Below, one piece after another: positions 11,107 through 46,764 of a stretch of 64,000 nucleotides of DNA. The notes beneath the pieces were generated by a model that was not told the origin of the DNA, did no database searches, and was given only the letters and a program-made list of their open reading frames with translations. The first letter of the stretch is position 1. Every line of letters begins with the position of its first letter. The stretch is from Gracilariopsis chorda. Lineage: Eukaryota > Rhodophyta > Florideophyceae > Gracilariales > Gracilariaceae. The stretch is taken from assembly GCA_003194525.1 (NCBI GenBank), contig NBIV01000080.1, positions 62,001 through 126,000 on the forward strand, written 5' to 3'. Made by a program: the position numbers and the translations under genes.

Positions 11107-11186
11107 TTTTTGTTTTCCCTCTTACGAGGTTTGTTTTCATTCACCGGAAGTTCCGTGATCGTTTCCCATCGTAACGGTATTTTGTC

Positions 11187-13361: not shown

Positions 13362-13489
13362 ATGAGGGAGTCTCCCCTTTGGGAGAGGCGTCCTCAGACA
13401 AGAGGGTGTTGGCGCCCGAGGCTTCCTCGCCTCGCTCCCCGGTGAAAGTGCTCTCGAGGAAAGACACCGCTGACGCGGACTCTGCGCAC

Positions 13490-18895: not shown

Positions 18896-19168
18896 CACCT
18901 CCCACGATCGCAGGTCGTGCGATAACACCGTCAAACGGGAACTGCAGCCCCAGCCACGCTGATTAATGCCCAAGTCGGGTAACGTTATCGCGCGAGCGGA
19001 GGGCAGTAAGAAAGGATAGCAGGGAAAGTCCGTCCAAGACGGGGAATTCTAATTGGAAATCACCGTCCGAGACGGGAAAGCTTACCTAGTGGAGCAGCAA
19101 GCTCCATACTACACTACAATAACTGGCATAGCCAGGGAAAGAAGAACCAGGAAACTGGACTAGAGGTT

Positions 19169-20956
19169 TCACTCACCCCCATCGTCCGGGGCGTAACCCC
19201 CAGCAAGGCGGTAGGCCAACGTGTCCGCCATAGTGGTGACATCCCCCGATACCTCGGCAGTGCTCAGACCGGCACCCCGGAGAAAACGTGCGATGATCTC
19301 GTTTTCATCCGCCGTCACCCCGCTGGGGATAGAAGGTCCGGCACTTGCCGTCGAAGGGTCAGCAGCCGGCTCTGCCGGAGATACCCCCTCTGGGAAAGCT
19401 TCTGCGCTAGCGCCGGTTTCCTCTACGTCCATCTCCCCGGGTTCTTCCGGTTCGTTATCGACCATTGGGTCATCCCCGCCGTATGCGCGGTAGAAGTCGT
19501 CAGAATGGACGTACCCCACCGGGGTGTCTTCCGGCACATGCCGGGGCGCATCGCGAAGCTCGTGCGCCTCCTCGGAGGAAATTTCCCAGAACTCCCAGGG
19601 GTCGAAGTAGATAAAATCCCCCGCAAAGGCGGTGTTTCTACCGATTCCCGGAACACCGGTGTTACTGCTGCCGCCATCCAGACGATCGCTTTGCTCCAGT
19701 GGGACCTCACTCCAGCTAACGCTGTCAATTTACCCAAGTAATTGGAGGACTTCTTCATTGTTGGCCTGGCCCCCAAGGGGGATGCGAAAAGCCAATTTGT
19801 GGATCGCTGCCCGCACACGCGGTGAGAGGAACCAGAGACGAAACTGGTCGTACGCCTCGTTGAGGATATAAGCCGTAGCGCGGGCCGCCCACTCCGTAAC
19901 CACTACGGACCACAACCCCGACCGGGGATCCTGCATGAGCAGCGAACTGAGGTACGTAAGTACCAGTGGGAGTTCTATGTAGCACCCTCGGCAGGCCTCA
20001 TGGAAGCGCCACCACTCGGGGAGTGCTACATACCGACCTAGTTGGTGAGGCGGCGCAATCTGCTCTATCTCCACGTTCTGATACGGGATGAAATACCCGA
20101 ATCGGGATTGCCAACGCCGCTCATAGCGAATGAAGTTCTGGAGAAAGGTTGAGCGGTATTGCCGGGAAAGATAGCGGAACTCCGCCCGAATAATCGGTCG
20201 CTCCCAACAAAGGGCTTCTTGCGGCGCTGCGGGGAAATTCCTCCAAGCGAAGGTCTCGAGGCGGAACAGGTTTTCGCCGTACCCAATCTCCCGGCGAGTG
20301 CGGAAGTGGCTAACGTCGAAGCCAAACTCCGGTGGGAGCGGTATATCGAATGGAGCCCGGCTCTGCCGTTGGTATGCCATGTGCGTCAACGCGGTCTGCG
20401 CCGCAGCGACGGTCTCGCCCGAATTCCTTCGGAGGTGGTTACGCGGAATCGCAATCCGGTGACGCCAATCCCACGATGTGGTGACTGCTCTGGGCAGATC
20501 CCCCGGAAGGGTGTCTGAGCCATCCGCATAAGTGGTGATCAATCCCTCATTGAGGACCGCGACCGGGTGGAACTACGGGGCAAGGCGCAGGCGCGACGCG
20601 TGATTCCGATTAATTGGGTTGAGCCCTACCAGGGTGTTGTAGGTTGGCCAGTTGGACACCGGAGTGGTTCCGGAGGACACCACCGAAGGTGGTAGTGCGA
20701 AGGGATGGTCGGCTGCAGCAGCCATATTCCCCGGTTGAACCGGATGTCGATCGCCCTGAGGCAAAGGAACTGACCGGAAACCGGTGGTGTATCGCCCGAG
20801 AAGCCTCGGAGGTGGGCTGTGGTTGTTGATGTTGTTGTCGTCGTTCATTTTTCTCTTGTCGAGGGTGGCTGTTGTTGTCGTTTGTGCGCTTGGTGACTCT
20901 GATGCAGAGGGATTTACCGGAGAACCGGAGACGGAGCACGCGCTTTTATCACCCAT
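19169..20956 (-). pseudogene. Gypsy-1 antisense gene: unknown protein of about 595 codons
   Basis: On the strand opposite gag-pol, one frame runs from ATG 20956, only 56 bp inside the 3' LTR, to a stop at 19169. Two in-frame stops interrupt it: TAG near 20573 (a Trp in Gypsy-2) and TAA near 19730. The protein has a Ser/Thr/Asn-rich head, a conserved middle (DWRHRI, FDVSHFRTRREIGYGENL, PIIRAEFRYLS, ALPEWWR, TEWAARA) and an acidic Pro/Ser-rich tail. No signal peptide, membrane segment or known domain is seen. Gypsy-2 encodes the same protein at the same place, so it is a real component of the elements. Function is unknown; transcription would have to start in or near the 3' LTR. Confidence 0.82.
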
Positions 20957-21000
20957 TTTCGTCTGGGAATCCTCCGCGTCCGCGGTCGTTTTCCCGTCTT

Positions 21001-21012
21001 AGGGGGGGGATA
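21001..21012 (+). promoter_or_regulatory. Gypsy-1 polypurine tract
   Basis: AGGGGGGGATA directly precedes the 3' LTR at 21013. This is the position and composition of the polypurine tract that primes plus-strand DNA synthesis. Confidence 0.85.
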
Positions 21013-21837
21013 TGAAGTGCAACGCCCTCAGGGAGGGATTCCTGGTACTTGATCGTTTTCCCGATATTATCGGTTGTGTAGTGTGTATATGAACTACGCC
21101 CCACAATGGTGGGTATGGACACGTGGGACACGGTTTTGGGTCAATTGGCGGTTGGCAACAGTAGTGGATGTTGCCACGAAATGTGGAGTATTTTAGTTGA
21201 TTTTATTTATTATTTTCACACCCACTTCTGGGAAGCTAGTACTTATTGCGACGGCGCACTGCCGTCGCACCAGTAAACCTTCCCCAACGATGGACCCCAA
21301 CCTGGGGAATGGGCTCTAGTTGTTACCGCTTGCGCGCGTGCTCTACTCCTCCTTGGAGGGAAACGCCGTGAACCACGGGACACCTAACCCCCTTGCACAT
21401 CTAAAGGGACCGAGCACTGGGAGTCATATTTTTCCATTTGCATTGGTGTTTCGCCCTGTATAGGGATATTGCTACCGGCATCGCCGTTCGCTCCCGTCGC
21501 TCTCGCGACTCACTTCGTCCTCTCTTCCTCCTCTTCGCCCTTCCTTCTTCCCCTTTTAGGGTAGCACCTCCCGCTATCCGCGGCTCTCGTGTGCGTATCC
21601 GCTCACACACCCCCATTTACGTGGAAACCTACCTCTGGCGAAGACGCATTCCCGCTCTCGCGGATACCGATTCTTGTCCTAAACCCTCTTGCGCTAGTCG
21701 CGAAGGGTGGCCTCGGTCTTACAAACCGGCTCCGCCGTGCCACCCCTAGAGGGGCTCTACCCAGCTGGATTCACCTCCACGGAGGAAAGATCCCGAACGT
21801 CTCTCGGTGTTTCTCCCCTTTGGTGCGTTGCACCACA
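21013..21837 (+). repeat. Gypsy-1 3' LTR
   Basis: It is 825 bp, the same length and ends as the 5' LTR and followed by GTGAG. A stem GCGACGG/CCGTCGC is perfect here and in the solo LTR at 829-849, while the 5' LTR copy carries a substitution that still allows pairing in RNA. Confidence 0.95.
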
Positions 21838-22314
21838 GTGAGTACAACGAGACCGAGTGTAATGAAACCCCAGCAAGAGTTGGTCACTTCGCGCAGGCGA
21901 TAAAATCAGAGCCGAGTCACAGCTTAGCTTTAGTTCAGGGTGAAACGGCAAGGCCGTTCTCCCTTAAGTACTATTAGGTCACAATAAACTAATAATACTA
22001 CTAATGTAGTGTGCCACACTTGTGGCCCACACTCTTGTGTCACTTGGCGGCACTGCCAGCCACGGCGCAACACGACACGTGTGAATCATGCCAACCATGA
22101 ATAATATCCATGCGCTTGCCACGCGTCCATCTGTTCCAGATACCACAGAAATCACCCACGAAGGTTCCCAAAATACTAATTAAGATTCAAATCAAATTTT
22201 ATCCAATACTTTCGAGTGTAAACTCATACCTGAGTTGAACCGATGCCACTTCGGTATTGAATCATTCATGATCGACCTCGCTAGAGGGTATGCGCCCACA
22301 CATTGCTATAGACA
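21838..22314 (-). repeat. Gypsy-2 3' LTR, right piece
   Basis: After the GTGAG duplication the sequence matches the second half of the LTR at 46765-47709 and ends CATTGCTATAGACA, the counterpart of CATTGCTTTACA. Together with 9783-10251 it makes one LTR of about 946 bp, against 945 bp for the intact one. Confidence 0.88.
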
Positions 22315-22326
22315 TCCCCCTCCTTA
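22315..22326 (-). promoter_or_regulatory. Gypsy-2 polypurine tract
   Basis: On the minus strand AAGGAGGGGGA abuts the 3' LTR, which begins (minus strand) at 22314. It is the expected primer site for plus-strand synthesis. Confidence 0.8.
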
Positions 22327-22481
22327 GACCGGAATCATCCCACCGAAAGCGAGTGACCCGCAGACGAAAACGGGTATAAAGGATCCAACTTTTCATTAGT
22401 GATAGCGACATTCCTCCATTTCAACGCATAGCGCGACGAACGAATACTAATAAAATCGAACCCGATTGTTCATCTCCGTTA

Positions 22482-23263
22482 ATGAACTCAGAGAATCCCA
22501 ACCAACCCAACCCTGGAGCGGGTACTTCCCATTCTGGTAGTATAACTCCTTCATCCTCCGGACTGAGCTGGTTTCCTATGGCTCCATTGCCTCATGGTAA
22601 GTCTCAAATAACCGTCCCGGTACACTCCCGCGCACGGCAGTCCTCTCAGGGTACTCTGGTTGTCATAAACCAACTCGGCTGGATCCACATGGTAACCTTG
22701 GAAACACGGGATCCGTTACAGAATCCTTCGATTTATACCCGTGCTCCTTGGTTTCAACCGTCCGAGTTTTTCAACCTGCCACTGATCCAGTCCTATGCAC
22801 ACGACGGCGTTCTCGCTTCTGGACTTCTACTTTCCGTTGTCACTTCACTCGATTGGCGGGAACGCATTGTGTTGGATCCTAACCTTTTAAAGATAGACCT
22901 CCGCCGTGCAGAGAACCTGGATAGGGGCCGAGAAGAAATGACGCGAGTCGCGTATAAATGGCTCATGCGTACTCCAAGTCAATATCTGATTCCCAGTGAA
23001 TACGAATTCGACGTATCAAGGTATCGCACCTATGGTGAAGTATCCAATGGGGATAATCTGGCCCAGTTTGATACGGCACAATTCGAAATCGCAACGCAGG
23101 TAACCGTCGAGTCCGATATGTTGTTGGGCGAGTCCCATCATCCCTGCGGATTTGCGGTTCCTCCGACGTTCTGAAATGCAAGCGGCTTTTTCCGAAAAGA
23201 TTCGGTTTGATCGCAAGGCGCGTTCCCGAGATCTGTATTGGATTCCATATGTGGCACAGCCAG
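22482..23263 (+). pseudogene. Gypsy-2 antisense gene, N-terminal half
   Basis: The ATG at 22482 opens a 230-codon frame homologous to the first half of the Gypsy-1 antisense protein. Shared pieces are APWFQP, TSLDWRERIVL, MTRVAYKW, FDVSRYRTYGEVSNGDNL and, after a frameshift near 23130, PIIPADLRFLRR and an IPY motif. The head is Pro/Ser-rich. The gene is cut at 23263 by Gypsy-3 and resumes at 37348. It is read on the plus strand, antisense to its own gag-pol, with its start 167 bp from the 3' LTR. Confidence 0.85.
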
Positions 23264-23816
23264 TGGTGAGCACAACATCCCTAAAAGAAGACTTTTAGAT
23301 TCTTCCTAACAGATGGGTTCCAATATATGGTGGTCTCCATAATATAGAAGTGGCAACCGGGGGAATCCTGAAAGAAGTTCGGCAAGCACCAAGCGGAGAG
23401 CGGGTTCACTGTGTGGACGAGAATCCTACAGGTGCCACTATGGGACGCGCTGGGTATCGGTGGCTTAGAACGCACACCTAGAGGATGATGTAATAGTGTA
23501 CCTGAAGGTGAGTATCGCGAGGTTGAACCAGACGAACTAGAACAAGCCTTGAGGGTGCTTGGTATACTTTCCCGGAGGTGGAGCTTCCAGCGGCGCACTA
23601 TATACAGTGCTGTGAGCTGACTTCAAGGGAAACTATGTACTGCATCCTATAAAAATCTAAGCTAGGCTATCCTACCTAATTCAATTACAATCCGCTGGAA
23701 AAATTCCTGTAGAGTCGTGTGCCCACGTGGCAACAGTTAGAAACTACTAGTACTCTATTCCGAATCTTCTGCAATAGCCCATCCTTAGGATCATGCACAG
23801 TACCCACTGCACTACA
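23264..23816 (-). repeat. Gypsy-3 3' LTR
   Basis: It begins TGGTGAGCACAAC and ends GCACTACA, and is collinear with 36792-37343. Scattered differences show the insertion is old. Confidence 0.88.
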
Positions 23817-23829
23817 TACCCCCTTTCTT
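23817..23829 (-). promoter_or_regulatory. Gypsy-3 polypurine tract
   Basis: Minus-strand AAGAAAGGGGGTA immediately precedes the 3' LTR, the expected place for the plus-strand primer. Confidence 0.75.
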
Positions 23830-24155
23830 GGATTGCAGCACGTCCTCGAGGTGCATCAAGCCTAGGTGCTCATCTCCCTCAATTATTCTGCGGGTCTGCT
23901 TCGGGGCGTGCATTGCAGCATTGAATGTTGTTACCTCCATCCCAGGTGCTGTTCTCGAATACGCTTTCCTTCCGTTCACCGTCCTTTTGTAACCTTCAAG
24001 GCACAAAATCGGCCCTAACCTCACGTGTATTTACCCCCGTCCGCTCATACCTCATGTGTAACTCTTACTGCAGATCGGGTGCGTTTCAGCCCCATTTCTC
24101 CACTCCTTCGTGCGTGCGACTTTCATATCCTGAAGGAACGCCTGCACGCAGAACT

Positions 24156-24587
24156 ATGAATCGGTTCCCCATAATGAAGCGGCCTGCGTCTCCTGCATCT
24201 TCCGAGTCATCATCTGCCCGAACTTCTCGACGGCGTTGCGATTTTCCCGCGATTCCTGAAGGACATACAAGCGGCGGCACTCCTCTGCAGGTATCTCCCT
24301 CCATTTTTGGTGTCAACACACAAATTTCTCCAGCTCTTCCTGCTTTCTGCTTCCCCTTTGGAATGTCTCAAGCTTATGACGATCAATCTTCGACTCTCGT
24401 GGATCCTTGGGTGTACCATACCTCTACTGGTGCGCCCCTCCGGGCTGTCGAGCATCTCTATCATCGCGCCAGTCGGGTTTTCGTGCCTTTCCACAATCGG
24501 TGGGTCAGCCTAGCGTGCTCCGTCGGTGAATACATCCATCATTTCGTACGATTCCTTCAGGCGACCCGTTGTGGCGGGAACCCTTAG
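24156..24587 (+). CDS. Gypsy-3 antisense ORF, unknown protein
   Basis: From ATG 24156 (the frame is open from about 23925) an uninterrupted 143-residue ORF runs on the plus strand, antisense to gag-pol and between the chromodomain and the 3' LTR. This is exactly where Gypsy-1 and Gypsy-2 have their antisense gene. It starts with a Ser/Arg-rich stretch (SSESSSARTSRRR) and ends RFLQATRCGGNP. I see no clear similarity to the other antisense protein and no domain. That it stays open while every pol ORF of this element is broken may be chance at this length, or may mean it decayed late. Confidence 0.5.
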   Translation: MNRFPIMKRPASPASSESSSARTSRRRCDFPAIPEGHTSGGTPLQVSPSIFGVNTQISPALPAFCFPFGMSQAYDDQSSTLVDPWVYHTSTGAPLRAVEHLYHRASRVFVPFHNRWVSLACSVGEYIHHFVRFLQATRCGGNP

Positions 24588-24688
24588 GCGGTTGACATAG
24601 CCTGTACGGATCCATTTATTAAATTCAATAAAGTTAGCGCTTAGTTGGTACAGCAGTTCCATCTAAGGTTAGTGTTAAATTGGGTTCA

Positions 24689-26315
24689 TTAGTCCCTACG
24701 TGTGCGAAAAGAAACGACAAAAACCTGTAGGGTAGTGTGAAAAGGTGTGTCTCTTGTAGGTGAGGAAAGCAGAGATATACCATTTTTGGCCCCTCTAATT
24801 TTCTTAAACGAAAACGCCTCTAAGAACTTGCTTTTTTGCTCCAGTGTGGCGTGGTATCGCCTTAGGAACTTCTCCGGAATGTATTCCAGAGGTGATTCCA
24901 TGTCATCCGCTGAGTTGTAGCCATACCATCTGACGTGGTACTTGATTATTGGAGGGGATTGACGGTGCGACACAATGTGGTCCACCACATATACGGTCCC
25001 ACCCTGTGGTGTCGAGGGTACGTCCGGGGTACCCTGAGGAGCGTTGCGTAAAGAGGGGGCATCTCCAATCATGGACGAGCTATTGGGGTCCGCCGACACT
25101 ACCTTAAGTGAACGGGGCATGCCCGGTCTTGTCGCTGGTTTTGCCTGGGGTGGAGGATGAGCGATTGGGTGCTGCTGACGTCGCTTCCGTGGGAAAGGCT
25201 CTGCGACTTTTGTCACCGGTTCTCGTGAGATGATGTAGCGGAGCCCGCCTATCTCGATGGCCATCGTATGTTTATAGGTGGCCAGGACCTTGTAGGGCCC
25301 TCAGGTGTTTGACGCCAATTTGTCGGTGACGTCTGGCGGTTCTTCTGACATCTCCTGGGGTTTGTCGAGGAAAAAGTCATCCCCCTTCTTCAGGTGGGGG
25401 CCTTCTTTAATCTTCAGGTCAAAATCCTGTTTGTATCTTCTTTGAGAGGCAGTCAGTCTATCTTTCGCAAGCGCTAGTGCGTTCTCACACTGCCTGACGG
25501 TTGCCCTTTTTGATTGGGCTGCCGTGGCTGCCTGAAGACCGTCCGAAGTGTGCGCCGTGGAGAGCGTGGGAATTATGGCGCTTGGTGAGAGCAGTGACAG
25601 CACTAGATTGAACGGGAGCGTCTCCGATGAGCGGGGCACCTGAAGGTTATAGGAATACGTGAGCGGGCCCACCTATGCGTCCCAGTCCTTCTGGTGGTCC
25701 GCAATATAGTGTCTTAACCTCGAAGCGGTGGTCTTGTTGAACCTCTCCGCTTGGCCACTCGCCTGAGGATGATAGGCGGTGGTAAACCGCTGTTTCATCC
25801 CCAGCATTTCTGAGATGGTGCGCAGGAGTTTCACCACAAATGGCGGACCATTATCCGTGATTGGGTAGAGTGGAATTCCGTATAGATACACCCAATTCTC
25901 CAGAAAGGCGTCGGTAATAACTTCAGCCGTGGTGGTCTTCATGGGAATGGCGCGGGTGCGCTTCTTGGTGATAACCAGGACATAACGTTACCCTGTCTCC
26001 GAGTTCAGTAGAGTGTCCAATATATCCATGGCCACACACTCCAAAGGGCCTAAGGGAAGAAACAAGCTTAAGGGAGTGCTATGCTTCCTTATGGTACCCC
26101 TAGTCGGCGCATGAACGGCAGTCCGCCACTGTTTGGAAAGCATCGTTGGCCATATGTTGCCAATAGAACTCTCTCTTCACGGTGGAATCCATGCGGGAGC
26201 CACCGGGGTGTCCTGCGAAGCGCAGATATTGCGAACGATACAGAAACCTAGCCCGCAGGGTGGCTGGGACCACCTCTTGGAATGCGCCGTCGAAGGGTGC
26301 CTGCCGCACCAACAC
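24689..26315 (-). pseudogene. Gypsy-3 integrase and chromodomain
   Basis: Read leftward: the HHCC zinc-finger region (YLRFAGHPGGSR then CRSC, 26100-26315); after a frameshift, the integrase core with ITDNGPPF and the E in SGQAERFNK (25673-25942); the C-terminal region (25301-25672); and a chromodomain near 24830-24990 (YVVDHIV then YHVRWYGYNSADDMESP). TAG at 25673 and TGA at 25301 interrupt the otherwise continuous frame. The first catalytic Asp region, around 25950-26090, is too disturbed to read. Confidence 0.88.
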
Positions 26316-26405
26316 GCCATCGGGGTCTACATTGAAGAAGGATGTGCAAACTGTGGCGAAGCTCTCTCTACAGAAAGTGTCCGTGCTCTGCTCCTTCAGG
26401 AATTC

Positions 26406-27433
26406 CTACATGTTTATGAGGAGTACTTCCTTCTGCTTCTCAACTACGGCCAGCAACTCAGGAATGCCGGCATACTTTCCACTGGGTTTATTACATTCCA
26501 CAGAATCTCCTGCAGGTTCGCTTCCTTCCTCCGTTCCACCTAGGGTGAGGGACGAAATGATGTCCTCCAAGGGGGTTTTATCTTCTCCATCGCTGGATAT
26601 ACGGGACAGAGCGTCCCCTGCCTGTTGTTTCACGCCTGGACGGAGGACGATATAAAACTCATACTCCAGCATGCGCAACTTCCAACGTTCTAGGTGTCCG
26701 GAGGCGTCCATCAAGGACAATATCCACTTCGGTGGAGCATGATCATTGGTAAAGGTAAAGCGAGTACCCTCCAAGTACAGTCGCAGTATTAGCACTGCCC
26801 ACACAATAGCGAGACATTCCAGTTCGGAGGTGGAGTAGTTCCGTTCCGCCTGGGAGAGGCTACGACTCCAGTAACCTATTGGCTGCAGTCCACCTTCCGG
26901 TTGTTCCTGTAGGAGAGTGCATCCCACCTGGTAGTGGCAGGCGTACGTATCCAAGACCATGCTTCCGTGTCCTTTCGGTAGAAGCAATATGGAAGGTTCA
27001 ATCAGCTTCCTCTTCAGGATTTCGGAAGCTCCATACTCCTCGTCCCTCAAGGTGCCAATCTGCGTTGGTTTCTCTTTCTCCAAAAAGCGGTTCAATGGGG
27101 ACGCCACTCGAGAGAAATTAGGGAAAACCCAGCGGAAGACGTTGCAAAAACCTATAAAGAAACGTAGTTCCGTCTGGTCCGTGGGCGGTTTGGCTTCGTT
27201 GGTGGCGTCTTGAGTCTTGCTTGATACCTGTAGGCGACCGGGGAGCACTAATTGCCCCAGTTAATCCACAGAAGACTTGAAAAGGAAGCACTTCTCTAGC
27301 ATCAGGGTTAGGCCAGCATCCTTCAGGAGTTGGAGGACGTGTCTCACATGCGTGAAGTGCTCCTCCACGGTAGGCGGGTAGAAAATGACGTCTTCAATGT
27401 ATAACAAGGCCTACAAGAGGAAGCGGTCTTCAG
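26406..27433 (-). pseudogene. Gypsy-3 RT C-terminal part and RNase H
   Basis: It begins at the Helitron-2 junction with RFLL, a TAG near 27412, then ALLYIEDVIFY. YIED stands where YLDD or YIDD is expected, so a catalytic Asp is replaced by Glu. Next come LKDAGLTLMLEKC, a stop near 27260, the thumb region (TELRFFIGFCNVFRWVFPNFS) and RNase H (LDTYACHYQVGCTLLQEQPEG, ERNYSTSELECLAIVWA, TNDHAPPKWIL, QQAGDALSR). The frame ends at 26406. Confidence 0.88.
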
Positions 27434-27578
27434 CCACCCACGGCGCTGCGCGCTGTGTTGAAGGAGTGATAAACAGCGCTGAGAAGAAAAAAGGGTGGAG
27501 AAAGCAAAAGAACAAAAGCAAGTAGTTTAATTCAATGAATGAAGAACGCAAGAATTATGATCATGGTTGTGGAGGGAT

Positions 27579-29515
27579 TCATAACGGCATAGCTTCAAGC
27601 AGCACTGGGTTCGCGATGTCTATAGGCATGGGATGAGTTGTATGCGCATTCGCGGATGTAAGCTGCAGGTCATGCATGAGCAGCAAATGGTGGTTCCTTC
27701 GAACGCGCGACAATAGAACATACAACTGACTGACGCAGAAGAAATTGGATCGCACATCTACAACCAAGCCATCCAAGGTCGTTCCCTGTCCTTTCTGAAC
27801 GGTATGAAAAACTGCCTTCGAATCATGAAAATGTTTTTGAAAGAAAACTCGAAATCGATACGATGCAGGAGCTGTCGTTCTAGCACCTGTCCGTTCTCGT
27901 CGAATCGAGCTACTTGCATTGCAAACTGATTGACAAGAACGACTACGAACAGCTTTCCATTGACCACAGCATGATGTTGGATGTTCCGAATGACCGTAAC
28001 TGGCACACATATCTTCAAGTCCAAGTTATGAGGTGTTACTCCGGTAGTAGCACACCGATATGCGAACTCGGGAACCACATTCTTGGTGGGGTCGGGCTCT
28101 GATTTCTGTCCACCGTCAGGTTGTACTGCCGTTGCGGACGGAATAGTGAAGGGTTCACCTGGAAACGGATCCAGCACAGCCGCATTATGTTCGTCGAACA
28201 ACTGGTTTGTGGATGCGAAGAGCATTTTGCTGAGATCCACATCCTCTTTGCCTCTTGTTGTGAGCCACTTCCACAACAAATGGTGTGCGGTTTGTATCCC
28301 GCCGGTGGACCTGAGCGGTAGTGCAGCGTTGTTAGACATGTTGCTGCGTGTAATGAATGTAACTGTGACGCGAATGCCGGATCATCGGCTTGGCGTATTT
28401 GTTCGGTGAGATAAAACAATTTAACCGAACAAAATGTCCACATATCACTCTTCCACGGGAACTCGTTGAGAATTGTTGTGTACACTCTTCTCACATTTCC
28501 GCTCGGCTCAGCCTCCATGTACAACTGCGGCACAACGGGAAGCAGCTGTGAGTAGTCGCCGGATAGAACGATGATCAAGCCCCCAAACGGAGGCGGGTTT
28601 TCCATTCCACGGCAACAAAGGTCCTTGAGCACCGCATCCATGAGTTTAAAGAGCTTTTGTGAGAGTATGAACCCGTCATCCAAGACTAGCAGTTGCATCT
28701 CACGTAACGTTCCCGCAAGTTGACATTGGGGACCGTACTTTGCCAAAGTGGCTGTAGTGCTGCTCGTGCTGTCTCTATCAGCTACACCCAGTCCAAGCAG
28801 GCTAAGTAAATTGCGGCCAACTTCTTTCAACAAAGCTGCAATTCCTGTTCTATCAGCCATTTCGGCAAGCATTCCTTCCGACTCAGCGATATCGCGAAGG
28901 AGGCTGAGTACGTTTGTCTCTCCAGTACGTGCGGATCACCGCGCAAAGAAAACCTTTCCTGGAGTGCTTGTTTGCTCTTGCAGCGCTTATCGTTGTTGCA
29001 ATGCGGCAATGACGGTGTCAATGACTTTTCTTTGGGGAGGTTTTAAGATGGCGTACTTTGACTGCAACGTTGACACATTTCGCACCACTCGCGCATCTCG
29101 AGTTGTTGTAGCTGGAGTTGTCTCAGTCATTGCTGCCTTATCCAGCTGTAAGTGTTATTAGAAGAAGTTGTGATTGCGTAGCAGTCATCCACCATGCCAG
29201 TTTGAGATCTTCGCCACGCGTTGATACTTTTCTTGATTCCGTTGCTGCTTATCGCCTGTATGTATGTCGCAGCAAGCGCAGAGCAACGAGCTCAATGTCG
29301 GACGGTGAAAAACCTCTGATACTAGCGATGTACTGCTCATCTTCCGTGCGCTCTACCACGTACATGGGCTGGTCTTGGTTCTCTATGGGCATCTGAGTGC
29401 TGTCTCCGTCGTTTTGATGCTTAGTCACGTGCAGAGAGCGTGCTATAAAAACGCACCTTTTCAAGAAAGGTAGTCGGGTTTGCATATGCTTCAGGCCTGG
29501 CAAAGTACCTCTCAA
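27579..29515 (-). pseudogene. Helitron-2 PIF1-like helicase
   Basis: Helicase motifs read leftward: a linker like that of Helitron-1 (29249-29515); a degenerate Walker A around 28905-28945, where G-x-x-G-x-G-K-T has become unrecognisable apart from the following QTYS; Walker B LLVLDDGF near 28680-28700; LSGDYSQLLPVVP near 28525-28565; and the C-terminal VQKGQGTTLDG, VDVRSNFF and QLYVLLSRVR near 27710-27800. It ends at the stop near 27579. The region is broken into three frames. Loss of Walker A residues would abolish ATP hydrolysis. Confidence 0.85.
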
Positions 29516-29543
29516 GTTTAGACGGCTGCGATGCAGAAAAGAG

Positions 29544-31813
29544 CTAGTTTGGACCTCTCAGCAGAAATGTCCGCTCTTTTTCCAATTGAATGGCCAGTCG
29601 CTCTAATTTTGGTACGATGCGCACATGTCGAATGTCAAAAATTCTCCAAGCTGGGTTGACGGCGCCCACCACAGGCGCTCGCATGTAGGCAGGAATGTCG
29701 TTCTGCACCTGCGGCTCTTGTGGCTGCTCGTTGTGTGTGCCTGTCTCATTAGCACCACTCACATTGAGCACCACCTCCTGAGCTTTGGGCTGCTTAAACG
29801 CGTACTTCATCAGATAATCCACTGCGCCCCCTCCTTGCGTGCGCTCTACGTTGATATGAGAGGGGTACTTCTTGGTCAGAGTTGGGTTCTACGGCACTAT
29901 GTTGAGGTCATGTTGCCTTCTTCCGCGGTAGACCACGCGATTCGTGCCTTCTTCAATATACGTATCCGGCACAATCATGTTGCTGTCGTATCCGAACTTG
30001 CACCACCCAGCACGATTCGGGCAATAGGGGGAGTGGCGGTGCCTGTGCATGGAACGAATGAGGTCACGCTATGCATCTTCCTTGTTTGGAAGGGGAAGTT
30101 CTGCACGAATCAGCTCGTCGATCACATCAACTTCTTCACTCACGACTCCTTAGAGCCCCACGAGCATGTGGTGATGAGACTCATTGCGTTCTTGAAACTC
30201 AAGCTTTGATGCAAGCCCCAGGCACTTCATTCCAAAGATGTACTCCGAGTTCTTCTCCAAGTCCTTCATGTAGTCGTTTGCGTAATGGTTGTACGCCTTT
30301 GCAAACAGATCGGGCCGGTCAAACGGTGGAGGGCAGTTACTCTCTGCCGTGAATGCGCTGCGATTGATGGTGTCCATAACAAGGAGCTGGATGTCCTTTT
30401 GCCAGATGTTCATGGTGATTGTAATGGAAAGAGAAGGAGGTTCTCTCCACGCTACGATCGCCTGTACATCCATGCGCTTGTTCTTCAAGTACGCTGCTGA
30501 TTGGACCGAGTGATCGGGCAGAAACATACGTCCCATTTCTTTGAGCTGTGATGGTGACACATGACCTGTTTTCTGTTGTGCTTTCTGGATCTCTTGCGAT
30601 TGTAAAATACTTGCATTTTTTTCTCTCTCCAGGAAACGTCGTCGCATTTCCTCATTGTTTGTGTGCGTGCGTAGCATCCACATCTGCATCAATGGTCCAC
30701 TGTTTAGAAGGATGCTGCCTGAGCATAGAAGTCGCTTCGCGTTTTCAGCACAGGTGAGCTCTCAGAGCTTCTACTCGTTGACGCTGAGAGACGAGCTGTG
30801 CCGTGACGAGTTATTTGCATCCACAAACAGTCCGATGTGAAACGGTTCGCGCTGCTCACCGTACGGGTAGAGAGGAAGGAAAGTGCCCTTTTCTGCAAGT
30901 TTGGATGCCGGATTTAGAAGTCTTTACTGCACCGGCGCATTGTTTGCGGCATTCACAGTCGCTCCTGCTCCAGCAGCAGGAGCAGTCCTCACATTGGCGT
31001 GCTCTACGGTTACGGTTCCTTCTACCAAGCGCGGTACTTGAGACTGCACTCGGTACAGGCCAGTCGGATCCCCAACGAGCGTTCTCGTCATGGTTGGCCC
31101 GCCCGCCTAGAAGCATCTCCAGGGAGAGGGCCAGCACGTGCATGAGGAGCACTGACTGTGAAACCTCGGGTTCCTTCGTATCCACGTACGACTACTCTCT
31201 CTCTTGCTGCCTGAATACTGATATAGAAGGCGGTCTCTGCATTTTGTTGTTGTTATTGCGTGCTAAGCATGGATCGGTACAGCTTGCGAACCACATCTGG
31301 CGTGGACTGGATCACATTGTACAACCTGGGCACGATGTCTCTTAATTTGATTTCCTGAATGAACGCATGCGGTTTGGAACGCGCAAAGTGAGATTGATCC
31401 AAGGAAGGCGGACCGGTACCTCATAGAGAGCTGTAGCCCGTCTTGGTCTAGTTCTGCGTGGGGAGAGCAAGAGCTGTGCTGCCCTCAAGTCTGAGAAAGG
31501 AAAGACCGCCTTCCGTCACATACGAAATTTCCATAAACACTTGCGTCGTCGCAAAGAGTGTATTCAAGTTGAGGAAATGAGATAGAAATGCTCTCAGGCT
31601 ATAAAGACTTCGAACCAAATTGTTGCTATGCCTTCTGCGGAAAGTGACGCCCCTTCCGGCCTTCTTCGCATTCCACAGCACACTCCGGTGGTCTCTTTGC
31701 CAGGCAAAACGCATCGGCAGTACTTGGAGCTACGTATGCTCAATGTCCAGTCCGGGTACGGCCAGGAGGAGAGGATGTGGGGTTGCTCCACGGATCTTCC
31801 GCATCCCCTTTGA
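29544..31813 (-). pseudogene. Helitron-2 N-terminal zinc finger and Rep endonuclease
   Basis: The N-terminal Cys motif is near 31690-31740 (SSKYCRCVLPGKETTGVCC), followed by NLNTLFATTQVFMEISYVTEGG, like Helitron-1. The Rep domain is in 30150-30692: the first motif (MNIWQKDI) and the metal-binding HHH in NESHHHMLVGL near 30160-30180. The part at 29544-29822 carries DYLMKYAFKQPKAQEV. Stops and frameshifts separate the pieces. Rep nicks and joins DNA in rolling-circle transposition. The catalytic Tyr region beyond the HHH is in a disturbed stretch. Confidence 0.8.
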
Positions 31814-32781
31814 CCATCAGTGGAAAGCGTCTCAAACTCTAAAACGCTTGCACGGATGGCTGGATCATTCCAAACGTCAGCTGCAACGGGATCCTACTCG
31901 TAGCACCCGCGATACAGTCCTCGGTCCGCAGTCGTGCGTAGCACAGGAACTCTCCACACACTCTTGTTGGATTTTAACGGGCGGAGTGTGCCCAGCCGGT
32001 TTTCAAGCCGTTTGATGTGTAACCTGCGTCTGGTTGAAAGTAATGGTCTGCCTTTACTCACACACTGAATTTTGCTTTCCAGTCCCAAGAGGGACGACAC
32101 GGCAGCCACCCCGGACCCTGCACAGCAAGCTGGTACTACGTCCGGGAAACCCTTAGACTTCCTGATCGCCGTCAAACGACTATTATACCACAGAGCAGGA
32201 CCTGAACTTTGCAAAATCAGTGGTACTTAGTAGGTTACTCTTGTGGGGATCTGCACACGAGCTCGGGCTTACCTAGGTCCCAGGGCAGCAACAGTGCCCA
32301 AAGTAGTAAAAGGTTACAACACTGGGCTATTGGCCAAGCTTGAATGGGATGCAAAATAGTGGTTAGGGTCAGCAAGGGAGATGATTTTGCACTGCGCCAG
32401 TGCTGTATATATACTCCTGTGCATTGTTTTGCACTGGCGCAGTGCAACATGCCAACCACGTGTCGCGCAAGCCAGCTGCTGCTGCTGAGTGGTTACCACT
32501 GCAGTCATTTACAGTAGTGCCAGCCACTCAGCATCAGAAGCAGTCAACATACAGCAGCATGCAGCAGCAGCCAATGAGCCGTACGCTTTGCTGCTGCGGC
32601 TGCTGAGTTTGGTGAATGGAAGGCAGGCGCTGCGCCAAGAGAGGTTTTTTCTCACGCGCGTACGGGGCGTGCGCGCGTGTTTATTGGCGTAACGCCTCCC
32701 GTCAATCAACAACGCCCCCTTCATGCATGAACAAATCATTACAATACGTGGGGTGTTGAGGTTGCCACGTCACCTTTGAGA
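31814..32781 (-). other. Helitron-2 5' non-coding region
   Basis: No credible ORF is found. It holds a pair of inverted palindromic arms around a TATA-like sequence (listed separately), a stretch of CTG/CAG-like triplets at 32470-32600, and a GC-rich CG-rich piece near 32650-32700. It probably contains the promoter for the Rep-helicase transcript. Confidence 0.45.
32389..32445. promoter_or_regulatory. Inverted palindromic arms around a TATA-like box
   Basis: GCACTGCGCCAGTGC (32389-32403) and its exact reverse complement GCACTGGCGCAGTGC (32431-32445) flank TGTATATATACTCC. Each 15-base arm is itself a near-palindrome, and each is preceded by TTTT. The arrangement looks like paired protein-binding sites on both sides of a core promoter, or a cruciform. 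Its position upstream of the Helitron-2 genes suggests a role in their expression. Confidence 0.5.
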
Positions 32782-34280
32782 GGTTTATGTCAACTGCCCG
32801 CTAGAATGTGGCGGGGGCGTTTTTCAGTCCTAAAGGCATCATTAGGAATCTGAATATGCCAAAGTGGGTGGTGAAGGTTGTCTTGTACTTATCGACGTCG
32901 TTCATCTCGATTTGGCAGTATCCACTATTGGAGTCCAGAGTAGAGAACAACAACGTATGGCCTAAGGACTCGATACATTCATCCATTTGGGGTATCGGGT
33001 AGGAATCCCGCTCTGTTACCTCATTCAGGCGCCTGTAATCGATACAAAATCTCAGCGATCCATCTTCCTTCTTGGCGAACACCACCGGGAAGGCCCATTT
33101 GGAGGTGGATGGCTCAATCACGCCCTTTTCTAACATGCGTTGGATGCCCTCACGCTCGAAATCGCGTGCATGGGTCCGGCTCTCCCTGGGAGTTGATGTA
33201 CCGGTTTTGCCTCAGGTGTTAACTGTATCCGGTGCTTGGTCAAGTTCACTTGGCCCAAACGGTCGGATCAAATATCCTCAAATGCAGATAACATTCTTAT
33301 TATTCTTTGGCGATACTTTACGAATTCTTCGCCAACTTGGAGCTTCTCCTGCCATGGGGCAGGGTGTCTCCTTAGGAGGCGATGGTGAAGAATCAGTTTC
33401 CATTGCGGTGACAGTGTCCTGTACGGAGAGGTATTCTTTTGGCGGGATCTGGGCCAGTCCTGTAGGAGCGGGTAGAGCTATCCCCCCTACGGTGCCCTTA
33501 TGGAGCCTTAAAGGAGATTCTTTAACGTTGGAAACGACAACCCTGAAGGGGGTGGTTGACACTATTTCCATGACACCATTCTCCATCATGGATTTTAGCT
33601 TCATAGGAAGGTGAGGGCTCCCCTGCAAGAGTGATAAGCCTGAGTTGAATCATTACACTCAGACTTCGGCCTGGCTCCTCGTGGGTATCTGAACACTTTT
33701 CACAACGCGGAGATTGTTCGACTGCGTTTCTTTTTGAAGTCTAGCCACTTGACGCGCATTAGCGTCGGGTCCGGAGATGCGGACCCGATATCTACAGTGG
33801 TGGTATTATGAAATGTCACCTTCCGCAGGCGTAGGTAGATGGCACACCTATACCAGTCCACAAAAGAAGTCCCCAGTACGCAGAGTGCGGCCAAGTTTGT
33901 CGCCAACAGGAACCACATTCTTACCTTTAATGAACCGACACGGAGATATAAAGGCAGAGGCCCGAGTATGTTTAACGTTCGCCGCGAGGCATCGCACCGT
34001 TGGTAGTTTGTCCGTCTTTAGGGAGTTCAGGGCCGACCTGGGGATCATGCCGACATGTACCAAGTTCGGACCGGTGCCTGTGTCCAAGATGGCACGTGCG
34101 TTGGTTGATGCGAGTGGAGAGCATCGTAAGCAAACCAATACTTTATATTTCTCACGTCGGAGCAGGTATACTGATTCCTCAAAGGGGGTGGATGGGTCTG
34201 CTGAAAATAGGGGATCCGGTGATTTTGTTGCATTTTGGCGTGGGGGGTCCACCAATTCCATTGCACCGGGTTCCCCCCCT
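32782..34280 (-). pseudogene. Gypsy-3 protease and RT N-terminal part
   Basis: The aspartic protease is at 33848-34261 with AILDTGTGPNLV near 34060-34095. A linker follows (33278-33628). The RT begins at 33136: GVIEPSTSKWAFPVVFAKK, LRFCIDYRRLNEV, PIPQMDECIESLG, MMPLGLKNAPATF. It is followed by a TAG (Q expected) and RAVDI, then is cut by Helitron-2. Several frame changes separate protease, linker and RT. Confidence 0.88.
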
Positions 34281-34284
34281 TTCC

Positions 34285-36681
34285 TAGAGGCGAATTCCGT
34301 TGGACTGGAGCTCGACAGAAGGGAGCCACGCGAAGCTTCTACGCGTGGTCCTGAGGGTTTTCCTGAGTGGAGGGTGTCGGAGGTCCAAGCGCTGCGTTCG
34401 GTTGCAGTGGTGCAACCGGGTTCGCAGTGTTCCCTCGCAAGTTGATAGGGGCTGCAGCTGGAACAGCCTGTCCCGGCATAGGTGGTGCCGGGACTGGCTG
34501 AGCGGCTTTCTCCAATTGGGTGCGGTATACATAACGACCTTGAGGGTAACGGAAATCGCCGTAAGCGGTATGATAACTATCATTCTCTGAACAGGTGTCT
34601 TTCGCCGCCAGGAAATTCTTCTCCCTCTCCCGGAGTATGGCGGCCCTCATTGCAGGGTTGAGAGTGGTGCAGTGCACCGGTTCTCGGGACAAACAAATCC
34701 TACAAGATGGTGTGTAACTTCGATGATTTGCGAAAGGGACATTACTAAAGTATCCCGCTGAGGTGTATGAGGTGGGTGACGACGGTGTCCATGAACGGGA
34801 CGGTGCCCCTTGGGGTGACGCAAAGCTGAGAGAAAGGGCATCCTGCTCCTATTCGATCGTTAGATGGTCCGTGTCTCCTGAAGTGCTGGTGTCCAACGTA
34901 AAGGGCGTAGCCGTGCGATTCCTTGAGGTGGAGAGTTTGTCCGAAAGTGGAGCGTGGCTTCGCCGTGCAGTGCGGTGGATGTCCCCGTAGGATTCCACGA
35001 AGCGCGCTAACTCCGTATAGGTGGTCCGAGGGTGCGTGGTCAAATGGTGGCGCACCCTCGCGCGTATCGAAGGGAAGAGTCCCTCGAAGAAAAGTGACTT
35101 TAACTGCCGCTCAGAATTCACGTTTCTGCACCTTAATGCCTTGCTCCAGAGTTTCTGGGAGAACTATGCTTCGGTCATTCCCATGCTCTGCCGGTAGGAG
35201 GTGACGTCAGCGTCGGCATCTGCAATCAAGTTGTCTGTGGCGTACCGTTTGAGGAGTAAGTTGACCACCTCGGGGTACGTCGTCAGTACGTCTCTTCCAG
35301 GACCATCCACAATGGCACTTTCTCCTGTGAGGCGGGGTTGCACGAGGGAGTGCGCCTGCCCAGTGAGGTAGAACTGAAAGCACCAAATGGCGGCACCTTC
35401 ATGCACGCCGTTGGTTTTATACGCCGAACGGAAGCGTGTAAGATCTTTCATCACTGAAATAGGGTCTTCGCCTCAAAACATGTATTTCTTCATTTGAATA
35501 TCCATTTGGCGCTGAATCTCTGTAGGTCGTTTAGCGACCAACGTTTCGTAAAGAGTGGAGCAATCATTCAATCTGTAGGTTTCATAATCCATCATCTTGC
35601 CGAATAGATCGTTTAACCGGACGATTTTCCTCACCTTTGGTCGTTTCTCCTTCAGAAGTTCGTCGTTCTCTGATTCGGAGCTGTTCTCGGAATTGGCGCC
35701 CGTAATACTCTCGGAATAGGGATGTATTCTATTTCTTGTTCTGTCCCTCCTTTTTCGGCTTCTTCTTTCCTGAGTGGTGTCGGGGGTCTGACGTGGTCCC
35801 CATTATCGCGATTCACCACCATAGTATCCTGTTCCCCTCTCCGAAGGTGAATTTTGTCGCGACCGGTATCCTGTCCTCCTCCGTGGGGTGTCAGGTCCAA
35901 ATGGTTCATAGCTGTATTCCTAGGGCGTCTCCGTTTCTTTGGGGGTATCCTGTCCTTCTCCGGCAGGAATAGTGGCAGTATTCGGTCTTCCTCTCCCCGG
36001 CGCTACCTTAGGTGTTGATAGAGGGAACCTCTCCTGCACGGAAGATGCACTTTGAAACGCGGCTACCCGTTGTAGCTGCGTGGGTTGGGAGCGAACCTCC
36101 CCTCGGATAACACCATAAATCACCTCTACGAAGGCATCCGAGTCCAGTAGTGCGTCTGCCCCGCGGTGTGCACTTGCGATCGCAATCTGCTCCACTAGAG
36201 CGTGTTGGCGGGATCCAAGATGCGCCTTGACACCTGCAGGAATCCGTTCAGCGAGCTCTTGCGAGAGCCAATCGGTGAGGCGTGGAGCCATAGACTCGAT
36301 ACATGTATCAGGTTCTATCGTGCCCTGGGCATGGATCTCCTGAGGCAGCGGCGGTTGTGACGCCGTCTGGGTTTCTTCAACTTCCACTCAGGCACTCTCC
36401 GGAGGCATGGTGGAGGTATCCGCTATCATTGGGTCATTTGGTATCCTTAGGCGTTGTCCGAACCATTCGACATTGGAGCAAGCACTCCGTAGGAGAGGTT
36501 CAGGATCATCTAGCATGGCGGTTAGTCCTTGGGAGGCGCTGCGCGTGCTGCATCCATCCTGGGAGCCCGGCGCCTGAGGAGCATGAGAGGGGGTTTCCGG
36601 GGTAGGCTCCTGGTGGTCCATAGAGAAGTAGGTCAGATTGATTTGCTTCCACTTCCGAATCAGTTTAAGGAAGGATTCCAC
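34285..36681 (-). pseudogene. Gypsy-3 gag
   Basis: The likely start is the ATG near 36621 (MDHQEPTPETP). An early TGA at 36388-36390 and frameshifts near 35910 and 35460 break it. A recognisable capsid region (VMKDLTRFRSAYKTNGVHEG, WCFQFYLTGQAHSL, YPEVVNLLLKRY, ELARFVESYGD) spans 34985-35455. A degenerate zinc knuckle CRICLSREPVHC is near 34675-34712. The C-terminal part is Pro/Ala/Gln-rich. It is not close in sequence to the Gypsy-1 and Gypsy-2 gag. Confidence 0.75.
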
Positions 36682-36755
36682 TACGAGGAGGATTCAGTCG
36701 GTGCGATTGTAGCGCTTTTCTGTCGCCCTCCGTTACATGCACCATAAGGAACGAA

Positions 36756-36775
36756 TTTTCTAGTTCGGGAGACCA
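36756..36775 (-). promoter_or_regulatory. Gypsy-3 primer-binding site candidate
   Basis: Minus-strand TGGTCTCCCGAACTAG resembles the Gypsy-1 site TGGTCTCCTGACTTAG. It is 16 bases from the LTR, farther than usual, so the call rests on the similarity. Confidence 0.5.
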
Positions 36776-36791
36776 GTCGTGGTCCAGTCAT

Positions 36792-37343
36792 TGGTGAGCA
36801 CAACGTGTGTAAAATAGGACTTTTAGATTCGGCCTTACAAATGGGTTCCAATAGATGGTGGTCTCCCTAACATAGGAGTGGCGACCGGGGCAATCTTGAA
36901 AGGAGTTCCGCAAGCACCAAGCAAAGAGTGGGTTCGCTGGGATGACTATAATCCTACAGATGCTGCTATGGGACGCGCTGGGTATCGGTGGTTTAGAATC
37001 ACACCTAGAGGATGACGTAATAGTGTACTTGAAGATGAGTATCACGAGGTTGAACCAGACGATCTAGGAAAAGCCTCGAGAGTGCTTGGTTTACTTCCCC
37101 GGAGGTGGTGCTTCCAGCGCGCGCACTATATACAGTGTGGCGAGCTGACCTCCACGGAAACTATCAACTGCATCCTATAAAAAACTAAGCTAGGTTATAC
37201 TACCAAATTGAATTACATCCGCTAGAACAATTTCTCTGGAGTGGTGTGCCCACGTGGCACCAGTTAGAAAATACGAGTACTCCATTACGAATCTTGCGTA
37301 ACAGTCCATCCTCAGGATTATGCACTCTACCCATTGTACTACA
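36792..37343 (-). repeat. Gypsy-3 5' LTR
   Basis: It is 552 bp, begins TGGTGAGCACAAC and ends TGTACTACA (plus-strand reading), and is collinear with 23264-23816. Confidence 0.88.
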
Positions 37344-37347
37344 CCAA

Positions 37348-38276
37348 ACACTAATATTGAAACCGAACCGTATCACCTGCAAACGTTCAGGGGTCATTTC
37401 GCAGCGTTGCCACCGTGGTGGCGTCAGGTTGAGGTACCAAAGGGGTGTTTCCCGGAACTTCGTCCCTGTTTAACTTATAGAAGTTTCCACATCATTGACG
37501 ATCCGAAATCCGGTTATTTGTTGCTTATTGCCGCAGAATGGGCTGCCTGCGTAGGGGTTTTCCTTCTCTGAGAAGAGTATGACAACTACTCCCTTCGGTT
37601 TATACCGCTGATGGTAAGGAACATCATCAGAAAGCTCGAACTGTTAATCCCATTGGAATGCCAAGGCAACATGGACGAAGTCTTATACATCGTGGATGTG
37701 ATCTACCACGTCAACTGTGATACCGTTCCGTGGGATAAGCGTGGTCAGGGTCCAAGAAATCTTCGTGAGAAATCTCCGGGTCGCCGGCATCCAACTGCTG
37801 GAGACTTCGTCTATTACGACCCGCATGTGGGTGCGACGGTGTCCCGTGCTCATGCAATTGAACAACGCAGTCGTCCGCGGTCCATATCAGCGGGTCATCC
37901 GACAGGATTCGTATTTCATGACTATTACGAGCCGTTGGTCGACTTCGATCCGATGATGGATGACGAGGCCAGAGAGACTGGCGGCCTTTACCATGGACCG
38001 TTCATGGATTCGGTTGTTCCGAGCAACGCTGGTGCGCCCAGCAAATCGGATGCTTCCGAGGGGTAGGGATTCGTACCTCAGATGAGTGAGCCGCAAACTC
38101 TAGCGGACGAGCCACGTACGGTTGCAACGGACCCTTATGTCATCGCATTGCGCGACAACCCCCAAAAGTTTGGAATCCCAGTACTTTCGAACATGGTTGA
38201 TGTTGGACAGCTTCTGGCTCTCGCTGCGGCGAACTATCTTCAGTCAATCAGTCAATCTGGTGCGGGCACTTCGTAG
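37348..38276 (+). pseudogene. Gypsy-2 antisense gene, C-terminal half
   Basis: This continues the gene cut at 23263. The frame resumes right after the Gypsy-3 flank and matches the second half of the Gypsy-1 antisense protein: ALPPWWR for ALPEWWR, AEWAA for TEWAA, EEYDNYSLRFI for EAYDQFRLWFL, AGDFVYYDP for AGDFIYFDP, FDPMMDDE for DDPMVDNE. Stops at TGA 37569-37571 and TAG 38064-38066 interrupt it, and TAG 38274-38276 ends it. Both differ from the stops in Gypsy-1. The whole gene would encode about 570 residues. Confidence 0.85.
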
Positions 38277-38563: not shown

Positions 38564-38821
38564 TCACTTCATACCCTTCGGGGACTGGGTACGGTTCTGC
38601 CCTACTTGGGCTATATCCATCGTTGCTGGTATGGATTTCCGAGTCCTTCGGCGATATTGTAGGGCTTTAGACCTAGGTTGGTGTTCGATGGGTTCCATCG
38701 TGTTCTCTTCTGGAGGGTATTCATACCAACAGATTTGGTACTCAAACAACCTTTGTGGGTCATATTCGTGACGTACGCTGCGTTCAATAGCGAATTCTCT
38801 GGGATAAGTGTCAGATGACAC
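38564..38821 (-). pseudogene. Gypsy-2 chromodomain
   Basis: REFAIERSVRHEYDPQRLF followed by EYQICWYEYPPEENTMEPIEH aligns with the Gypsy-1 chromodomain (REFVVDRL.., YHVHWYGYDPSGDTWEPI). The final Trp of the T-W-E-P motif is Met here. The tail of the ORF beyond this is short and unremarkable. Confidence 0.8.
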
Positions 38822-41260: not shown

Positions 41261-41266
41261 CTTGAA

Positions 41267-46762: not shown

Positions 46763-46764
46763 CT

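Follow-up and report, generated by a model that had tools for sequence, protein, structure and literature searches.

An antisense protein gene common to chromodomain Gypsy families of the red alga Gracilariopsis chorda, with a predicted promoter of its own

The stretch of DNA analysed here, which we call the window, comprises 64,000 nucleotides of the red alga Gracilariopsis chorda (contig NBIV01000080.1, C80 in our genome set, positions 62001-126000). Two retrotransposon remnants in it, Gypsy-1 and Gypsy-2, carry next to the 3′ long terminal repeat (LTR) a gene that is read from the strand opposite gag-pol. This is a true protein gene, it is under purifying selection and it is common to distinct chromodomain Gypsy families; the sequences that precede it strongly suggest that it has its own promoter, apart from that of the LTR. 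The elements are assigned to the chromodomain Gypsy class from the chromodomain at the end of pol, which was found in Gypsy-1 with PF00385 and, by tblastn, in Gypsy-2 and in the longer loci of other families (L065-L068); chromodomains are described as gained more than once in excerpts of PMC5348765 and PMC12477816. The features of Gypsy-1 are as follows.

10257-11081, + strand: 5′ LTR of Gypsy-1, 825 bp, 94.3% identical to the 3′ LTR by blastn
14845-17460, + strand: pol remnants in several frames (reverse transcriptase, RNase H, integrase), from Pfam and the list of open reading frames (ORFs)
18527-18895, + strand: chromodomain at the end of pol (Pfam PF00385, E 3.5e-9)
19169-20848, - strand: antisense gene, coding part from its probable start, with two in-frame stops in this copy
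21013-21837, + strand: 3′ LTR of Gypsy-1, from the blastn comparison with the 5′ LTR

By eye, the element is flanked by GTGAG at 10252-10256 and 21838-21842. Its gag-pol remnants extend on the + strand from about 11175 to 17460, where gag is named from position alone and Pfam gag models gave no match to the gag-position region (11175-12482). Within pol, 15020-17457 was assigned by the Pfam models RVT_1, RT_RNaseH, Integrase_H2C2 and rve, and 14845-15019 was taken by eye from the ORF list. Given the chromodomain ORF at 18527-18895, the antisense ORF sits between pol and the 3′ LTR, its frame beginning near the polypurine tract and ending about 270 nt past the chromodomain. An earlier note on this DNA had placed the gene at the complement of 19169-20956. 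That frame is real, but it probably starts at 20848, and its translation (596 codons) contains two in-frame stops ahead of the terminal one, so the window copy of Gypsy-1 is broken.

Gypsy-2 lies in the opposite orientation, and its antisense gene is split by a third element, Gypsy-3.

46764-47707, - strand: 5′ LTR of Gypsy-2, from LTR comparison
45444-46464, - strand: gag-like region of Gypsy-2, shared with the Gypsy-1 region 11175-12482
40068-42322, - strand: pol remnants of Gypsy-2 (reverse transcriptase, RNase H, integrase), by tblastn with Gypsy-1 pol
38687-38809, - strand: chromodomain of Gypsy-2, by tblastn with that of Gypsy-1 (E 6e-9)
37344-38276, + strand: antisense gene of Gypsy-2, C-terminal part, positions 265-561 of the profile hidden Markov model (HMM) in three pieces and one frame, interrupted by stops
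22482-23239, + strand: antisense gene of Gypsy-2, N-terminal part, ending where Gypsy-3 is inserted, HMM 8-267 in two frames
21838-22310, - strand: 3′ LTR of Gypsy-2, part adjoining the antisense gene, 85.7% identical to 47234-47707
9782-10256: 3′ LTR of Gypsy-2, other part, split off by Gypsy-1 and matching 46764-47238
23240-23816 and 36768-37343: LTRs of Gypsy-3, 84% identical, which bound the insert in the Gypsy-2 antisense gene

The matches of the two halves of the Gypsy-2 3′ LTR (46764-47238 and 47234-47707) overlap by 5 bp. The pieces of the antisense gene are collinear with a single profile (HMM 8-224, 223-267, 265-339, 341-497 and 519-561), its first part being damaged by one stop and a frame change and its second by two in-frame stops. 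A split gene at 22482-23263 and 37348-38276 had been proposed; the split stands, but as the insert is bounded by the Gypsy-3 LTRs the junction is at 23239/37344, and a segment starting at 37348 is off the matching frame. The proposal that both elements encode the same protein also holds: the N-terminal Gypsy-2 piece is 36% identical to the Gypsy-1 protein over 110 aa (E 4e-15, a single comparison), and the whole-genome searches place this likeness beyond chance. LTR, chromodomain and profile matches agree that in both window elements the gene lies antisense to gag-pol and next to the 3′ LTR, as had been claimed. The nesting here is three deep (window 9782-47707): Gypsy-1 lies in the 3′ LTR of Gypsy-2 and is accompanied by a 5-bp duplication, the antisense gene of Gypsy-2 is interrupted by Gypsy-3, and Gypsy-3 in turn contains Helitron/PIF1 remnants (28036-30761).

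Relatives among eukaryotes were sought in the window's own genome, a 91.3-Mb assembly of 1081 contigs. With a piece of the Gypsy-1 gene as query, 138 matches were scored from 1456 first-look candidates, and 114 of the 138 have no stop in a 280-residue core (a count that includes the window's own copy, whose query piece was cut between its stops). Among the 29 best-scoring other Gypsy-1 copies, the frame is open for 609 codons in 17 and for no fewer than 524 in any. The Gypsy-2 piece retrieved, among the matches listed, a decayed group whose identity reaches 74% and other groups at about 37-44%, many copies of which have an open frame of 643 codons. For instance, L065, with 643 codons, is 39% identical to the Gypsy-1 protein over residues 109-642. 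These intact copies elsewhere in the genome indicate that the gene is real, even though both window copies are broken, and its absence from other genomic copies, which would have counted against the earlier proposal, is not what was observed.

The arrangement of the gene is equally constant. Among 30 Gypsy-1 loci, that of the window included, an LTR lies upstream in 29 and the chromodomain downstream in all 30. The four longer loci of other families agree: each carries the gene on the strand opposite pol, the chromodomain lies between the two, and upstream of the gene is a boundary resembling a polypurine tract and LTR; L067 has an additional pol fragment on the other strand. Among the matches listed, 21 of 67 Gypsy-1 pol matches have an antisense-ORF match within 5 kb downstream, and all 21 pairs are on opposite strands at a spacing of 2276-2477 nt, none being on the same strand or upstream.

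Selection on the antisense frame was estimated from the rates of nonsynonymous (dN) and synonymous (dS) change. Pooled over 30 Gypsy-1 copies, dN was 0.0210 and dS 0.0593 (ratio 0.354), and the frame holds 0.1 stops per copy, against 7.5-20.8 in the other five frames. The three frames of the opposite strand hold 7.5, 19.0 and 20.8 stops per copy; one of them has a ratio of 0.443 but 19 stops per copy, and this ratio probably reflects shared degenerate positions. Between groups, 20 stop-free family pieces gave 154 pairs in which 150 codons or more could be aligned, of which 148 have dN/dS below 0.7 (saturated dS being counted as 0). Of the remainder, four lie at 0.7-1, one is above 1 (with 10 differences in all) and one, with a dS of zero, has no ratio. 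Differences at the three codon positions, summed over family pairs, number 14807, 11533 and 23412. The most informative pairs (dS 0.44-0.71) have dN/dS of 0.19-0.27, although these 12 pairs all join the same two subfamilies and are not independent, while 12 pairs with dS of 0.011-0.33 range from 0.29 to 0.92, as is expected when dead copies drift. Finally, none of the 101 family pairs listed has an opposite frame free of stops. The earlier suggestion of a selected frame is thus borne out, with dN/dS well below 1 and no plus-strand frame open across copies. By contrast, the argument that had been drawn from stop codons differing between the copies gives no evidence of selection, both window copies being dead.

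The DNA between the polypurine tract and the antisense coding region, here called the leader, has features that point to an own promoter.

20944-20950, - strand: TATA-like box of Gypsy-1 (GATAAAA), 48 nt inside the polypurine tract
22375-22380, + strand: TATA box of Gypsy-2 (TATAAA), 48 nt inside the polypurine tract
20957-21012: the 56 nt between the ATG at 20956 and the Gypsy-1 3′ LTR, including the polypurine tract, mean divergence 1.1%

In the antisense direction, a TATA-type box is found 38-51 nt past the polypurine tract, reading GATAAAAG in Gypsy-1, TATAAAGG in Gypsy-2, TATAAATAG in L065 and L080, TATATATAG in L066, L076 and L077, and TATAAATA in L073 and L078; among the anchored sequences listed there is no other match to the TATA pattern within 150 nt of the tract. 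Five of seven group representatives have the box at +36 to +53 from the tract, while shuffling the letters of the seven leaders 20,000 times gave three of seven once and four never (5000 shuffles with the interval left free gave at most three), a comparison that does not count independent origins, as the groups are related, and that uses representatives chosen after those sequences had been viewed. Within groups, the box is present in 26 of 27 anchored Gypsy-1 copies (of 29) and in 10 of 15 anchored copies of the Gypsy-2 group (of 29 loci), the five misses being one base off the pattern. As the box lies inside the internal region, the antisense transcript could start outside the LTR.

Counted from the tract, the opening ATG of the aligned protein, its frame checked by hand against the alignments, lies at about +150 in Gypsy-1, +155 in Gypsy-2, +162 in L065, +174 in L073, about +184 in L068 and +188 in L074; L066 also has an ATG at +188, but not in the present frame. 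Several leaders have earlier ATGs as well, such as one at +69 in a large part of the Gypsy-2 group. In Gypsy-1, the ATG at 20956 is upstream of the box, and the surrounding GACGAAAATGGGTGATAAAA resembles the Gypsy-2 leader GACGAAAACGGGTATAAAGG, which makes 20848, the first ATG past the box and in the same frame, the better candidate; the coding start of Gypsy-1 is therefore likely to be 20848.

Compared with the 27 other copies, the 156 nt adjoining the 56-nt stretch listed above diverge by 8.4% and the distal LTR by 19%, and the first 288 nt of the 3′ LTR (21013-21300) diverge by 4.1%, the rest by 19%. An antisense promoter within the LTR as the sole source of the transcript was considered from this low divergence and was not kept. 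The block pattern is present in all 27 copies, and mosaic similarity is seen in the N-terminal part of L021, L022, L026 and L027, so one recombination event could explain the low divergence, which we report as an observation only. The antisense strand has the 11-bp word CGGGAAAACGA twice, at 20986 and 21053.

The protein is predicted to be soluble, of roughly 560-600 residues and mostly helical, with a disordered N-terminus, and to contain a conserved core with a basic motif (majority R-x-ERKARSR), an acidic linker and a small C-terminal helical pair. The majority line of an alignment of 31 pieces (A1), in which many rows are fragments and no column reaches 90%, reads RAPWFHP, DWxxRI, DVxxYRTxGE, RPxxRAEFRY, RxERKARSRxGxLxPY and LPxWW, with an acidic segment containing DDP found by eye; several of the shared motifs listed in the earlier note recur in it. 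Two intact members have net charges of -17 and -11 with a local basic cluster, and their highest 19-residue Kyte-Doolittle means are 0.95 and 1.29, the usual cut-off for a membrane helix on this scale being 1.6. The first structure model consists of helices with the short C-terminal pair.

Taking these results together, we propose that the chromodomain Gypsy clade has a second gene, read from the strand opposite gag-pol, that would encode a nuclear, nucleic-acid-binding regulator of the element, a reading to which we give an even chance. In most groups examined, transcription would start from a TATA promoter dedicated to the gene and placed about 50 nt inside the polypurine tract; as this promoter is internal and beside the tract, each element would have one, separate from the LTR promoter. 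The product would be an accessory factor acting in trans: once in the nucleus, it would bind the RNA or DNA of the element through its basic region and control how the genomic RNA is transcribed, exported or silenced. The nuclear site of action, the binding of nucleic acid and the regulatory role are here inferred from composition and analogy only.

Several observations weigh against this proposal, in addition to the relatedness and the choice of the representatives described above. The box is missing in two of the seven groups (L067; and L068 with L069, L070 and L079) and varies inside two of the positive ones, being absent from L074 while L066, L076 and L077 have it, and from L072 and L081 while their relatives L073 and L078 have it. 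Among the matches listed in both sets, 46 of the 67 Gypsy-1 pol matches have no antisense-ORF partner. The first structure model has low confidence (mean pLDDT 58.5, pTM 0.48), and a second one was worse. Additionally, no relative of known function was found in Pfam, NCBIfam, PHROGs or the PDB. In Pfam (31 A1 members at E 0.1 and three at E 10) the only match was DUF6220 at 0.093, which is at chance level; NCBIfam and PHROGs, searched with three members, gave one PHROG at 0.19, and the PDB, searched by profile, gave none. Phage records searched by tblastn, IMG/VR searched with two single members (which reaches close relatives alone) and fold searches of the first model, a viral fold library included, gave no match. 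The function proposed thus draws on composition and analogy.

Among the alternatives, the one that survives best, which we nevertheless consider unlikely, is that the product suppresses host RNA silencing, blunting the response to the double-stranded RNA that sense and antisense transcripts would form over the whole gene. The host genome encodes two Piwi domains of almost full length, within open frames of 590 and 1039 codons, and two long Dicer-like open frames with two RNase III domains each, which suggest an RNA-silencing pathway and make this explanation reasonable. Between families, the antisense gene also varies more than pol does (36-43% against about 50-65% identity to Gypsy-1). However, no Pfam family was matched, and the argument from double-stranded RNA applies to any antisense gene.

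An envelope-like or cell-to-cell movement protein is much less probable. The gene does occupy the site between pol and the 3′ LTR where env-like ORFs are located (excerpts of PMC7264820), but its orientation is antisense rather than sense, the peak hydropathy of both intact members is under 1.6, and two IMG/VR scans and the viral fold library gave no viral match. We give the same low standing to a second structural protein resembling a capsid or nucleocapsid: the helical prediction, the short C-terminal helical pair and the basic motif would fit it, but there was no capsid match by sequence or fold, and Gypsy-1 and Gypsy-2 already have a gag-position region (itself without a Pfam gag match).

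It is less probable still that the antisense RNA alone matters, as a regulatory non-coding transcript in which the open frame is incidental. A conserved leader and a TATA box would be needed in this case too, and antisense non-coding RNAs of retrotransposons have been published (excerpts of PMC7264820), but the codon-position pattern and dN/dS point to selection on a protein, and an RNA acting alone would have no use for several hundred codons that stay open between families of about 40% identity. Lastly, that the frame is open through a plus-strand gene or nucleotide composition, for which a plus-strand stop-to-stop frame of 243 codons over the C-terminal part in the window (19010-19741) might speak, was rejected by the stop counts in the opposite frames and dN/dS.

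A bolder form of the proposed nuclear regulator, which we regard as doubtful, would make the clade a two-promoter, two-strand genome whose essential antisense factor, with a new fold, counters silencing or carries the genomic RNA through the nucleus. Gypsy-3 also has an antisense ORF in this position.

23925-24587, + strand: antisense ORF of Gypsy-3, 220 aa, beside its 3′ LTR
24692-25300, - strand: chromodomain-like end of Gypsy-3, below the Pfam cut-off

This ORF has 86 matches in the genome; open frames of 708, 436 and 349 codons are found among the distant matches, and no TATA box was seen at the corresponding place. That it is a diverged member of the same family was rejected at the sensitivity used (no match in the profile search, hhalign probability 0.5%). 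If it is indeed unrelated, different antisense proteins would have been taken into this slot.

The window contains other features as well.

593-1397: third Gypsy-1-type LTR, 88% identical to the Gypsy-1 5′ LTR, possibly solo
1446-3644, - strand: copia-type gag-integrase frame of 732 codons
7774-8793, - strand: 339-codon frame matching PIF1 helicase, perhaps another Helitron remnant

Light-harvesting genes are also present. For one of their proteins, 7y5e, a Porphyridium complex, was the second-best solved relative, among many red-lineage antenna proteins, and the phycobilisome family gave one weak match. An Rfam scan of the window gave no match. Elsewhere in the genome, fragments of Piwi domains occur every ~8.0 kb on contigs C483, C648, C777 and C944, as opposite-strand pairs about 200 nt apart.

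C483:17466-17756, - strand, and 17956-18156, + strand: an example of such a pair

These inverted Argonaute pieces in repeat units might give rise to hairpin RNA.

With regard to known systems, the comparisons below rely on excerpts of the papers cited. HBZ of human T-cell leukaemia virus (HTLV) is a bZIP protein and, unlike it, the protein described here gave no bZIP match in the Pfam scans. Like our proposal, HTLV has an antisense retroviral regulatory gene with a nuclear product (PMC11963269), although its antisense promoter is inside the 3′ LTR (PMC7264820), unlike the TATA site here. CERV of Cer1 in Caenorhabditis elegans, a lineage-specific accessory protein of 517 residues, is needed for the nuclear export of genomic RNA; it differs in being made from a spliced sense mRNA that shares gag exons, and the main text of the source does not mention antisense expression (PMC10309623).

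Antisense accessory genes of retrotransposons have been described in flowering plants and a fungus, with function unknown (PMC7264820). In position and strand the gene studied here agrees with the antisense additional ORFs that Vicient and Casacuberta term aORF-3R. The Grande element of maize (Tat lineage) has, as here, an antisense gene between pol and the 3′ LTR, gene23; its own upstream promoter and its nuclear product without known relatives (PMC7264820) resemble what we predict for the algal gene. Host and element lineage differ, pol ending here in a chromodomain, and the proteins are likened by description only. In Retand (TRP28, PF04195), too, the interval between pol and the 3′ LTR holds an antisense ORF, which almost all recent copies retain (PMC11963269), but the element is a non-chromovirus of flowering plants, and PF04195 was not matched here by 31 members at E 0.1 or three at E 10. 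Boty of Botrytis cinerea, a fungal LTR retrotransposon, has an additional antisense gene, brtn (PMC7264820, PMC8365987), and so, by its description, shares the layout outside plants.

For red algae, chromoviruses are mentioned (excerpt of PMC3605345), and no antisense gene of a red-algal or chromodomain element was found in the titles and abstracts searched, which left most of the subscription literature outside and are weak evidence of novelty. The kind of gene is thus already known, while the protein, the host group and the promoter layout are new to the sources searched. Compared with the plant and fungal cases, this antisense-gene lineage lies elsewhere in the tree and offers many intact copies, a measurable selection signal and a precise promoter prediction, which together make the role of antisense proteins in retrotransposons a testable question.

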